A stretch of 64,000 nucleotides of DNA from positions 960,501 through 1,024,500 of the forward strand of contig JACVVK020000150.1 in the NCBI GenBank assembly GCA_018292915.2, read 5' to 3'. The DNA is from Batillaria attramentaria. Taxonomy: Eukaryota > Mollusca > Gastropoda > Batillariidae. The translations under genes and the position numbers were made by a program. The notes beneath the pieces were generated by a model. That model was not told where the DNA came from. It did no database searches and was given only the letters and a program-made list of their open reading frames with translations. Below are positions 11,401-17,400 of the stretch, piece by piece. Position 1 is the first letter of the stretch; each line of letters begins with the position of its first letter.

Positions 11401-14400
11401 ATATAAATTTGTACATGCGCAAGAAATGAGGCGTTCCTGGGATTCTCCTTACATTATGACCAGAACTTCTAATAAGTTCTATGAAAACATGTCCATAAAT
11501 TTATATGGCAATAACTTGAGCATATGATGTTGGTGTTACCTATTTTACGCTACCCTTGACCTAAATACAAGCCTCTGGTTCTATGACTTGACACATCTGA
11601 TTGATGCTATTAGTTATTACATACAGATCTGTTACTTTGTGTGCCGCATTCATGTGCAAAGTAACATGCAATTGTTGTTCTCATTCAGTCATTGTATTAT
11701 TTTTATCGCTGCAAACCAATTTCCCACTTATGGGACAGTAAAGATACTTTAAACTGAATGGAATTGATCTTAGTGCACCAATTCCAAGTGCAACTGTTCC
11801 AAAACAAAACTTGTCTTCTGTTAAGCCTAGCAATCTTGGAATATATGAGCATTTATTAGTTATCGTCAATGCTAATCAGCCAGAGAACAGTATACACTTT
11901 GTATAAATCTAAAAGATTTACAATAAATGACTTAATTAATTTAATTAATTTTGTTAAGGAGAGAGCCAAAAACAGTCACCAAACTATCCACTCTCAATTA
12001 AAAATAAAAAAAATAAAAAAGACCAACCTGTTTGTCCATACTCCATAGAAAAGTTCCACAAAGGCAAAGGAAAGATTCAGTATCAAAAATCCAAATAATC
12101 TTCGTGATGTTTTCTCAGAGAACACTAGTCTGGAACAAATTCATAGAAATGCTTTCAGAAAATGAGACAATGTTAAACAGAACCACTGAAACTAAAAGCA
12201 TGGGTAAAGAACATGCAATATATGGGCATGGCTCAGAAATGGTGTTGAAAAGTTGTGACACACTAAGGCAAAATAGAAAATCATAATTTACACATTGGAC
12301 TTGGGGCACACCATCTTCAAACAAAAACACATCATCTGAACCATTTTTTGCGTCATTCACTCATTTATTACTTGTGTAATATGACGCCAACCATTATCAC
12401 TGTGTACATAACATCACAACATCACAGGAACTTCTTGCTCCCATTCACTGGAAAGAGATACAAAGAAATTCATTTAACCTGCACCCTGTTATAAAGAAAA
12501 ACCAGTTGGGTTAACTGAAATAATTACACTGTTCTTGAACTTCAAAGAAGCGAGATATTTTAAGAAGCAGAAAATGTACGTAACTTCACAACGTTTTTCA
12601 ACTCTGAAGATCTACGACTGTCATAAGTACTTCAAATTTCATCCAAAACACACAATATTCATATAAAGCTAATCAGTAGGCTTTCAGCTTTTTTTCTTAT
12701 TAAGAGAAACAGCGGGCAAAACAGAAACTATGACATTAGAGCTGATACGACACTGGGAACACATTCTAGAAATGAAAAACCCCTTTTGGCACATAATGAG
12801 TGTACATAATGCACTTTGTTTACATGAAGCAGTTTTAGAATGTCTAGGTGTAAGTATTTACATCACTGCTGACCATGAAAGAGGTTTTGGTATTGATACA
12901 TTTGCCTAAACTAACTAAAGGGGAACTTCAGTATATAACTTCACATCGTCACAAGGCTAAAATTTGTTTACAAACTTATTAAGAGATTAACAATGACCTT
13001 TAAAAACCAAATCAGCAGACTATCTACAAAGCAGGTATCCACTGTTGCCACTATTGTCCCCAGAAAACATAAAACAATGGGGGAAAAATATGGAATGTTA
13101 CCATAGTACATAACTTAACAACAATGAGATGTCTCTCTCCTGTTTTCACAAATAAAACAAACCTTTCTTAGCAGTAGTTGAGCATCACAGGTGGTAAAAG
13201 TGAGTGAACATTACACCCCTGCAGTTGAAGCCCTTTAAGAATATGAATCGCCCCCAATTTCAGCCAGTACAAGAAAAAACAGTCTCAAGGAGGGGAAATG
13301 TACATAACTTCACAACGTGACATGGCCAGCTTTTTTAGAATGTGTGCTCCATTAAGACCATTCTCTGACTAAAAAAGTAAAGCATTTATACTACATCACC
13401 ATTTTTATTGTATGGAACTTTTATTTTACTTCTGAAGTAAATCCTCCTAAGACATGTTGACAAGCTGGTAAATGTTATACATAACTTCACAACATTTTTC
13501 AACTCTAAAGATCTGCGACTGTCTTAAGTACTTCAAATGTCACCCAAAACGCACAATATTCATATAAAGCTACTCAGTAGGCTTTCAGCTTTTTTTCTTA
13601 TTAAGAGAAACAGCGGGCAAAACAGAAACTATGACATTAGAGCTGATAAGATACTGGGAACACATTCTAGGAGTGAAAAACCCCATTTGGCACGTAGTAA
13701 GTGTACATAGTGCACTTTTCTTCTTTTCTTTTTTTTACACAAAGCAGTTTTATAATGCCTGAGTGTAAGTATTTACATCACTGCTGACCATGAAAGAGCA
13801 TGAAATGTGTTTATTTTGTGGTCTGGGAGAGGAAACTATTCTTCACCTATTCTGGGACTGTCCATATTATGTGCAGATGTTTATTTATGGCTACAATTCG
13901 AGTGCATTCATTGTGATAGTTTTGCTTTTACAGCCACTCTGCTTATCCTTGGAACAGAACTATGTAAAAACAGATAAAGTTATAGATTTGTTGATTTTAT
14001 TAAGCAAGTTTCATATAGATCTATAACAGCAAGCTACAGAATACTGTTCCAAATGCCACAACATGCAAGAAGATATTCAAACACAGACACATAGGTGAAA
14101 AACTGCATGTAGTTTTCAGGTAACTAGTCTAAACCTGCCTGGCTACCACAGAGGTCAATGGGGCTGTTAATGGCTCAGCGGAAAACGTCTTCAGACCTAT
14201 CTGAAAGTAAATGCAAGTTTGCGCCCTGGCATGAGTTTGGCGCAGCAACAACAGTTCCTTGTATCTGCTCGGTGGGATGCCAGGCCACATCCGCCCACGT
14301 GTATACATCCCCCTTTCTTTGCATGTAGTGAAGCTTCACCTCAGAACCATCATGCAACACTTCCAGCACCTGGACACAGGAGACATCACCTTATAAGATT

Positions 14401-17400
14401 TCTGACATGGAGAGACCAGCGTCAGCCTTAAGCCAAGAAAAACTAAAATAAACAGGATCATGTAAAAACTTGTCTTGACATCTCATGACTTTTGCAACAA
14501 TGGTTAAAGATATATAGCTTTGTATGCCGTGCGTTGGAGACACAAACCTATGCGTAGTAGCCGGCTTCTCCCTTCTTTCGGTTGCTTGAAAAAACAGCTT
14601 CCACAAAGTCGTCGACTTCTGGCACTCTGCAGATTGACAGTCATAAAGTTAATGACATTATTTCTACATTGCAGATAAATTCATGTTATGATAAATCAGA
14701 CACCAAACACCATCCTTCATCTGTTTGAAAGAGACATTTTTCCAATAACAGTTATGAACATCCTTTATTATTTGTTCAACTTCATGTAGCACATTTTAAA
14801 GAATGACTGTCCTATAGGTCCTCTAAGAAGCAAAGAGCTGTTACCTTCGTTCAATGAACCCCATGTTATGCAACCGCTGACCTAATGCCTTGCAATAGCT
14901 GTGTTTATTGTATGTAACTGAACTGTTCATAACATCACGACACACTGCACTTGCATCTTTTCACATTTTGTCAATTTTAAACAATAGACCTGCATAAACC
15001 TCTTTAATCTACTCTCACAGAACTCCAACAGTTGAAGTTACCTGCACCCTGTTATGTTTCTTCAAAATTGTCATCTTACTGCAGGTCAGCACACTCGTGA
15101 GAGATGTACATAACTTCACACAAACAATGGCAGACCATGGATCATACATTGTTGTGAAGTTATGAACTAACAAAGACCTATTTTGTGCAAAACCACACAG
15201 AAATGCATGTATGAATAGAAGAGGGGAAGTATGAATCATGACTGAACCATCATTCTCATAACCTAAATCTACAGTATGACCATCAGGGGAAAATATTTGC
15301 TATCAGTCCATAACCTCACACCAAAGGATTGTTGTGAAGTTACAAACAGCAGAATGGCACCGAAAAGTCTGTTAAAATGACTAGGACAAGAACCTAATGC
15401 TTCACACAGGATGTGAATGTGAAATTATGCAACCGCTGACCTAATGCCGTACAACAGCAGCGTTTACTGTATGTAACTAACTGAACTGTTCATAACATCA
15501 CAACACACTGCACTTGCATCTTTTCACATTTTTTCAAATTTAAACAACAGACCTGCATAAACCTCTTTAATCTACTCTCACAGAACTCCAACAGTTGAAG
15601 TTACCTGCACCCAGTTATGTTTCTTCAAAATTGTCATCTTACTGCAGGTCAGCACACTCGTGAGAGACGTACATAACTTCACACAAACAATGGCAGACCA
15701 TGGATCATACATTGTTGTGAAGTTATGAACTAACAAAGACCTACTTTGTGCAAAACCACACAAAAATGCATGTATGATTAGAAGAGGGGAAGTATGAATC
15801 ATGACTGAACCATCATTCTCATAACCTAAATCTACAATATGACCCTGAGTAAAAACATTTGCTGTCAGTTCATAACCTCACTCCAAAAGCTTTGTTGTGA
15901 AGTGATCAACATTTACTTCTCTAAAAATAACCCACAGACTTGATGTAGAGAACCCCAACTGCTTAAAAAAAAACCCTGCTTATCACTAAACTCAATAAAG
16001 CACACCCAATTCACCAGCAAAGAATCATTTCAATGAAAAGTGTTGTTCATAACATCACAACACAACTTTGTTTAAGTTTGTGTTGTGATGTTACGTGCTA
16101 AGGACTGACATGTTAAAAACAGTAATTAATTCTTGAAACAGTTTCTCCTCTTCAAAACTGTCCAAAACTGCAGCAGTCATGCTCTCACATAAAGGCATTT
16201 CACGTGTAGAAACGTAGTTGATAGTTTGATGCGACGTTCATAACATCACAACGCTGATGATGAGGCGTTAGCCACAGATTTGTAGTGAAGTTACAAACTT
16301 TGACCATTACAGCCGAAATATTCTTGACCACGCACAATAATAGTGAACACAATCGGACATGATCCCTTGCAACTATTAATGAGTGAGACGTGAACAAATT
16401 CATGTCTTTCACAATTCTGGGCTATTTCTCTACCTGTAAACATGAAAGCCTGAAAACGAGTACAACTCTTTGTTGTGAGATAACGGACACCATTATTGGA
16501 GTCTAAATTTTTTAATGGAGTTCCGTAAAATTCAAGCGATTTGACTTCAAACGTAATTATTTCGCAAGCCCGCCGCCCTAGATTCTGTCAGTTTTCACAG
16601 AACTGTTAATGCGCTTTGTACGTTATCTTGACTACAAAAACATCTCAGACAGTCCAATAAAATGTTTTTTTCTTGTAGATACGCACTGTGAAAACTGTGG
16701 AAACACGGAGTGATGTCTCGGCGAAACATTTTTCCAAAGATTGCTTTCGTCTTGATCAGTGAACTACATTGCACAGAAGCTATAATTGAAGAAACATGAG
16801 GTCGAAAACGCTGTTGCGAGGTACATAACAAGCAAATCAGGACTGACAACAAAAACTTACCTTCAATTTCTTCGTTGTTCTTCGACATTCTGTTTCCCGA
16901 TTCCACACAAAGACAAATCTGGCCAGAATGAATCGCACATGGTGCTGCGCGCAAAACGAAAGTCAGCCGATTCGCGCCACTGCGCAAGTAAAAAAGTAGT
17001 ACGTAACACGCCGTTCACAACAAAACTCGGAGCGCGACCGATATCGCATATTTTCGACGGTATGAGTATCTGACGAATGCTATCGCTTTATGGTTAAAAA
17101 CTGGCGTGAATTTAATAAAAAATGCACAACTTTTTGTTGTTGTTGTGTTTATTATTTCCGGCCGGTAACGATTATTCCGCCGCGGCTATTTTTTACTGCG
17201 ATGGCTTACGTACATTCCTGGTCACGAAAATCCAACGTGGCTCGCATAGTAAGCGGTAAATTTCAAAATGAAAGTTTTGGAACCGACTACGGACCACTTC
17301 CAAGTTTACTGTACTGGATTATCAAGCGGTGGGCACTTTCTTTTTGAAGTTATTCTTGATCACTGTGAAGGACCAAAAACCGTGTCACAAAAATCGCGCC

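Follow-up and report, generated by a model that had tools for sequence, protein, structure and literature searches.

The window analysed here is a stretch of 64,000 nucleotides from the snail Batillaria attramentaria (GenBank assembly GCA_018292915.2, contig JACVVK020000150.1, positions 960,501 to 1,024,500 of the forward strand), and the element in question is a DNA transposon in the first intron of the gene SLC30A7, which carries a regularly spaced array of an 18-bp motif. With human ZnT7 as a tblastn query, exon 2 of the gene was found on the minus strand at 12131-12024 (E 3e-10), and a weaker match of 27 amino acids marks exon 1 on the same strand at 18358-18281 (E 0.23). The transposon occupies positions 12224 to 17612 (5,389 bp), and it lies in intron 1, because these two exons flank it; in a genome search for its terminal inverted repeats (TIRs), the same ends were recovered at C150:972724 and C150:978112. 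An earlier note on this DNA, made from the sequence alone, had located a cluster of a short motif in SLC30A7 intron 1, an assignment that exon 2 and, more weakly, exon 1 support. The array is part of a recently amplified TIR-type DNA transposon. Both this surrounding element, which holds the whole array, and a pitch of about 182 bp between the motif copies are absent from the earlier note.

The boundaries of the transposon are defined by comparison with 12 other genomic loci (L009-L020), which were drawn from a genome listing of motif matches and together with the window copy make up a set of 13 copies. All 12 align end to end with the window copy, in one or two pieces and with sharp edges; their alignable part corresponds to window positions of about 12219 to 17616, and the sequence beyond is unrelated. 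The aligned copy ends and the genome TIR search yield a left TIR of 19 bp, GGGCATGGCTCAGAAATGG, at 12224-12242 (plus strand) and a right TIR of 19 bp, the complement of GGGCATGGCTCAGAAATGG, at 17594-17612 (minus strand). If the repeat is begun one base earlier, the left and right ends pair at 25 of 27 bases. Target-site duplications of the sequence ATAT border the element at 12220-12223 and 17613-17616. The target bases match on both sides in all 13 copies, twelve of which carry ATAT and one (L011) AAAT, and they can be read equally well as a duplication of 4 bp or as one of 2 bp (TA/AA) with the termini TGGGC...GCCCA. Two features of TIR-type (class II) elements are present, namely TIRs at both ends in many copies and a short target duplication in 13 of 13 copies.

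At up to one mismatch the TIR occurs at 68 + 65 places in the 715-Mb genome (reversed control, 0 + 0), and these 133 termini correspond to about 66 transposon copies in B. attramentaria. Among the 100 of the 133 TIR places that were listed, 48 pairs and 4 singles were found; 37 of the listed pairs are 5.34-5.46 kb long, six are 4.83-4.87 kb long, and the rest measure 4.2, 5.6, 5.6, 5.9 and 7.9 kb. In L011, L016 and L018, the three cases looked at, the short form is without one unit of an internal duplication. The first copy of this duplication spans 14866-15348 in the window and the second 15425-15911, and alignment reveals a second internal duplication with its copies at 12575-12883 and 13478-13798. 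A query of 471 bp from the interior retrieved 67 genomic candidates, and all 40 that were scored match at 96-100%. Outside the duplicated block, the mean pairwise difference among the 13 copies is 1.35% (range 0.16-1.94%), and therefore the transposon family is young. The locus L022 (C122, 7.9 kb) represents an older relative, with 91% identity over the longest matched stretch, other sequence inserted, one extra charged exon and the middle of the window copy for the most part absent. Two further loci, L024 and L025, have one end only in common with the family.

Within the transposon, 20 strong copies of the motif GTWCRTAACWTCACAACR are present at 12405-16297 (core positions), a number in agreement with the roughly 20 copies counted by eye before. 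The motif had been described as 16 bp long; column alignment extends it to 18 bp, as 19 of the 20 copies have G before the 16-bp core and all 20 have a purine after it. At up to three mismatches the window contains 23 matches (20 in the array, one overlapping an array copy and two elsewhere), compared to a mean of 5.0 and a maximum of 11 in shuffled windows, and none of 100 shuffles reaches 23. A weight matrix scores the 20 copies at 18.9-25.9 bits, a match that is given by construction, since the matrix was built from the same copies; among sites in the 64 kb that overlap none of them, the highest score is 10.4 bits. The conserved block of 15 non-redundant copies, a set that leaves out members of the duplicated blocks (12577, 14926, 15107, 15151 and 15869), reads G-TWCRTAACWTCACAAC-R and comprises 18 bp. 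In this set, 16 of the 18 motif columns, all except two A/T positions, lie above the 99.9% null, while of 78 flank columns two exceed the 99% null and none the 99.9% null. Flank similarity between array positions is near background, except for the duplicated blocks and a few weak pairs. A composition of two half-sites within the motif (TWCAYAAC twice) was considered and rejected as weak, since 46 of 2000 permutations reach it, and the motif strings were not found in full-text papers.

The 14 forward copies all have the same direction. Copy 1 (GTACATAACATCACAACA, 12404-12421) has no inverted partner and stands at a distance of 181 bp from the transposon's left end, and the array spans from there to about 4.1 kb from this end. 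It is followed on the plus strand by copies at 12576-12593 (in a duplicated block with that at 13478), 12931-12948, 13106-13123, 13300-13317 and 13477-13494 (preceded by A, the sole exception to G), all of them placed by weight matrix and column alignment. Eight more forward copies, supported by weight matrix and partner scan, are found at 14925-14942, 15106-15123, 15306-15323, 15488-15505, 15669-15686, 15868-15885, 16045-16062 and 16236-16253. The successive gaps measure 172, 355, 175, 194, 177, 1448, 181, 200, 182, 181, 199, 177 and 191 bp. Eleven of these 13 gaps are 172-200 bp long and fall within 170-202 bp, a range picked after the gaps had been seen and with two gaps repeated by internal duplication; random placement achieved a maximum of 6 in 200,000 trials. 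The mean pitch of ten gaps is 182.6 bp (standard deviation 9.0), with the repeated gaps and the 1448-bp gap left out and the 355-bp gap entered as 177.5; the two long gaps fit 2 x 177 (355 bp) and 8 x 181 (1448 bp). In the older relative L022 the forward gaps are 207, 181, 199, 179 and 191 bp, with two of its six forward sites being weak (13.8 and 14.3 bits), and the inverted pairs are kept.

The regular pitch and the uniform direction of the forward copies would also be left behind by a decayed tandem array, in which a unit of about 180 bp was multiplied and then mostly drifted, leaving the 18 bp as a functionless junction or recombination motif. The two internal duplications and the varying number of units show that the region duplicates readily, some flanks retain a weak similarity (z 4-5), and excerpts of one source provide a precedent in mollusc elements, i.e., the satellites BIV160 and Cg170 and the pearl miniature inverted-repeat transposable elements (MITEs) (PMC5139131). 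On the other hand, Tandem Repeats Finder detects no array from 11.1 to 25 kb, and the conservation ends at 18 bp, with the 2 of 78 flank columns beyond the 99% null. Moreover, had the 15 copies drifted without selection, one would not expect the same columns to be spared in each. We regard this main rival as possible, yet on balance doubtful. An ordinary tandem satellite was rejected, as there is no Tandem Repeats Finder row here and adjacent units are not alike over most of their length.

Six of the forward copies have an inverted partner on the minus strand at one of several offsets, an arrangement unexpected for a simple head-to-tail array. The copies at 15106-15123 and 15150-15167 form pair A (offset 44), those at 15306-15323 and 15330-15347 pair B (offset 24), those at 15669-15686 and 15713-15730 pair C (offset 44), and those at 15868-15885 and 15893-15910 pair D (offset 25). 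Pair E consists of 16045-16062 and 16081-16098 (offset 36), and pair F of 16236-16253 and 16281-16298 (offset 45). The right-hand copies of pairs A to D were placed by folding and partner scan, that of E by folding and that of F by weight matrix and partner scan. These offsets reproduce exactly the spacings read by eye in the earlier note. Its description of the copies as mostly head-to-head pairs applies to the 12 of 20 copies in the six pairs and breaks down for eight forward copies (12405, 12577, 12932, 13107, 13301, 13478, 14926 and 15489), which have no above-background partner within about 70 bp.

Inverted pairs of this kind could be precursors of small RNAs, which fold into hairpins upon transcription with the transposon gene or with SLC30A7. 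On the minus strand, four of the six pairs fold better than shuffled sequence (z -6.1, -5.2, -4.0 and -3.9), with pair E forming the best hairpin of the array (z -6.1), and two of three pairs folded on the plus strand also beat shuffles (z -3.6 and -3.3). Yet the third plus-strand pair is no better than shuffles (z -0.9), the minus-strand folds of two of the six pairs are weak (z -1.8 and -2.5), and a partner is lacking for 8 of the 14 forward copies. The stems comprise about 16-24 bp and are shorter than those of animal pri-miRNAs, which are expected to have a longer stem. There are no Rfam matches at gathering score in the 64-kb window, which also led us to reject a known microRNA family, and in sum hairpin RNAs appear highly improbable.

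The genomic distribution of the motif follows the transposon: all 100 listed exact matches to the 16-bp motif in the genome (contigs C2-C33) lie inside TIR pairs. A host cis-element of SLC30A7 was rejected on these grounds, as the motif moves with the transposon, and the intron setting of the array is incidental. The earlier suggestion of a repeated sub-terminal motif of a transposon family stands with regard to the family, given an element of about 66 copies that is bounded by TIRs and target-site duplications and contains all listed matches; the position of the array, in turn, is internal and not strictly sub-terminal. In another scenario the motif is the site of a snail transcription factor, which is employed for the transposon’s own expression. 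This would suit the inverted pairs, which are situated towards the candidate first exon, and the half GTTAYGWAC presumably resembles the sites of PAR-bZIP proteins. Such host regulatory sites are improbable, considering that the 100 listed exact matches (contigs up to C33) all fall inside this one transposon and that over 3 kb separate 6 of the 14 forward copies from the candidate first exon.

We propose instead that the 18-bp motif is a putative binding site for a protein encoded by the family, either the transposase or an accessory DNA-binding protein, a reading to which we assign an even chance. The approximately 20 sites, one per about 182 bp, would load many protein molecules along the transposon, and on the gene-start side the sites are mostly doubled as close inverted pairs. 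The loaded protein would then bring the transposon ends together and/or control the transposon's own promoter. Given the pitch of about 182 bp, roughly one site would be left per nucleosome, and the closeness of this value to the nucleosome repeat length is suggestive only. In its most far-reaching form, the proposal envisages an unclassified animal DNA-transposon lineage with nucleosome-pitched 18-bp sites for its own protein, one per linker and doubled as inverted pairs towards the gene start; the protein would coat or fold the whole element for synapsis or self-regulation, and the arrangement would amount to a version of the sub-terminal array of plant CACTA elements that is spaced out and adapted to chromatin. 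This extension is tentative and seems rather unlikely to us.

Several observations weigh against the binding-site reading. Across the 13 copies the invariance amounts to 0.936 for the core, 0.937 for the flanks and 0.968 for other sequence, and 4605 of 5000 shifted site sets are at least as invariant as the motif, in a test that includes the duplicated block, where the alignment is poor. Similarly, in L022 (10 of 20 sites) substitutions affect 8 of 160 core and 48 of 809 flank positions (p = 0.85). Certain flanks resemble each other, namely 15307/16237 (z 5.4), the upstream flanks of 12577/15107 (z 5.2), 15307/15670 (z 4.9) and 14926/15107 (z 4.4), and these weak similarities hint at a common tandem origin. 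The rightmost 1.3 kb of the transposon hold no strong motif copy, and of 16 other places predicted by the pitch, in the long gaps and towards the ends, not one exceeds the 95% background. At up to two mismatches the genome contains 1928 + 1972 matches versus 1674 + 1834 for the reversed control; with the control nearly as high this count is uninformative, and weaker motif copies may exist beyond the transposon family. Finally, neither an autonomous copy nor a recognisable transposase emerged from the open frames of the window copy, L022 and L023, the loci L009-L020 and L027-L029 having been aligned to the window copy only.

The motif is no better kept than its flanks between copies, and hence gives no sign of present-day constraint. 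Equal drift of motif and flanks between genomic copies is expected if inserted copies drift freely, and young, freely drifting copies would show little conservation signal at the motif. The internal motif pattern must have formed before the copies spread. Judged by the sequence, selection appears to have acted on the motif inside the transposon, where 18 bp are common to the positions and the flanks are not. The earlier statement that the core is kept while the flanks diverge thus describes the positions inside the transposon and fails between genomic copies, the flanks of which are equally kept. The opposite holds for the finding named in the earlier note as one that would speak against its reading, i.e., a motif that is a fixed part of one repeat with equally conserved flanks: this is observed between copies and not between positions, where only 18 bp are kept. 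An ordinary repeat consensus does not explain this 18-bp-only conservation between positions.

The transposon is apparently non-autonomous, as judged from the failure to find a transposase, and its candidate gene reads on the minus strand. A candidate first coding exon at 16861-16888 ends in a GTAAG donor read by eye, and its frame is also open in L022 as MPKNNEENEG; a candidate last coding exon with a stop lies at 14175-14369, an open frame, with the splicing likewise proposed by eye. Neither the last-exon frame nor a longer minus-strand frame across the first exon has a Pfam match, and a search at E up to 1 brought up no protein related to the last exon. A possible remnant of a LINE reverse-transcriptase tail (zf-RVT) at 13769-14023 on the plus strand scores E 2e-4 and 22.3 bits, below the curated cut-off of 27.5, and from this similarity the transposon may once have received retroelement sequence.

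The charged extra exon of L022 sits between the array and the left end of this locus and has no Pfam match above cut-off. The search for its relatives led only to a gene model of B. attramentaria that contains this exon and to two genomic matches, both weak. Part of the exon (L022 6366-6971, C122:663615-664220) has been taken into the NCBI model BaRGS_00017898, where it is fused to a deoxynucleoside-kinase-like protein, probably as an annotation artefact or an exonised transposon. The match to the exon on contig C55 falls in charged sequence and was dropped, and the loci L030 and L031, considered as relatives via this exon, were discarded, as they contain neither the motif at 3 mismatches nor a pair of TIRs. 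L030 itself features direct repeats about 5.7 kb apart (945-7387, 97-99% alike) around a charged frame of 526 amino acids, part of which looks by eye like a zinc finger, as well as a tandem array with a 32-bp step at 7463-8001; this may be a further mobile element. L024 harbours at 2357-2800 a frame that by eye resembles P-element/THAP9-like transposases in their C-terminal part, with a match to the Pfam family TNP-like_GBD that stays below its cut-off (E 0.0015), about 1.8 kb past the family-matching part; it was rejected as the family transposase for lying beyond this part. Elsewhere in the window, a 27-bp tandem repeat of about 12 copies (52537-52868) is open as protein on both strands.

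If the array is indeed a binding platform, it would be a natural case of transposase or regulator sites that are set at nucleosome-like intervals over several kb, and not packed at the ends, and the adaptation of site spacing to chromatin by a transposon would become testable. A young family of about 66 copies is a good tool for this question and a candidate for mollusc repeat libraries. More generally, a motif cluster noticed by eye within an intron is not necessarily a part of the host gene.

Among the mobile elements reported from B. attramentaria are Fanzor2-bearing elements with target duplications and degenerate TIRs, according to parts of PMC10711439. One of the closest parallels to the array is found in plant CACTA (En/Spm) elements, which are described in portions of PMC8195511 and PMC8978399: their sub-terminal repeats are bound by TnpA and consist of many 10-20-bp units, both direct and inverted, most copies are non-autonomous, the repeats are close-set within several hundred nucleotides of the ends, and the elements have CACTA termini and a 3-bp duplication. 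The snail transposon likewise combines short direct and inverted repeats inside a TIR element, known here from sequence only. Unlike CACTA elements, it has GGGC...GCCC ends, an ATAT-type duplication and a pitch of about 182 bp, and its array runs through the interior. Membership in CACTA/EnSpm was rejected, as the ends read GGGCATGG... and the flanking bases fit 4 bp or 2 bp and not 3 bp. Helitrons have neither TIRs nor a target duplication, and the snail transposon with its TIRs and duplicated target bases does not belong to them. Sola elements are characterized by a 4-bp target duplication and a Sola-type DDD transposase. The 4-bp reading of the snail duplication fits this group, though the 2-bp TA/AA reading fits as well, and a Pfam search found no transposase domain, Sola-type or other, in the transposon fragments searched. 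Curated bivalve Sola1 elements average 5,445 bp, as given in an excerpt of PMC10294476.

Parts of PMC5139131 describe two conserved blocks in the bivalve satellites BIV160 and Cg170, short satellite-like arrays in pearl MITEs, and the CENP-B box of alpha satellite, a 17-bp site of a transposase-related protein. The snail array resembles the mollusc satellites and MITEs in the length of its repeats and in its short conserved blocks, which in those arrays too are located inside or next to mobile elements. The BIV160, Cg170 and pearl monomers, in contrast, are ordinary satellite families, whereas the snail units have only 18 bp in common. CENP-B boxes recur at nucleosome-like intervals, and in this respect the snail motif, a short site at nucleosome-like spacing, is comparable. 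It differs from the box by an unrelated sequence and by its location in a dispersed transposon with no centromere indication.

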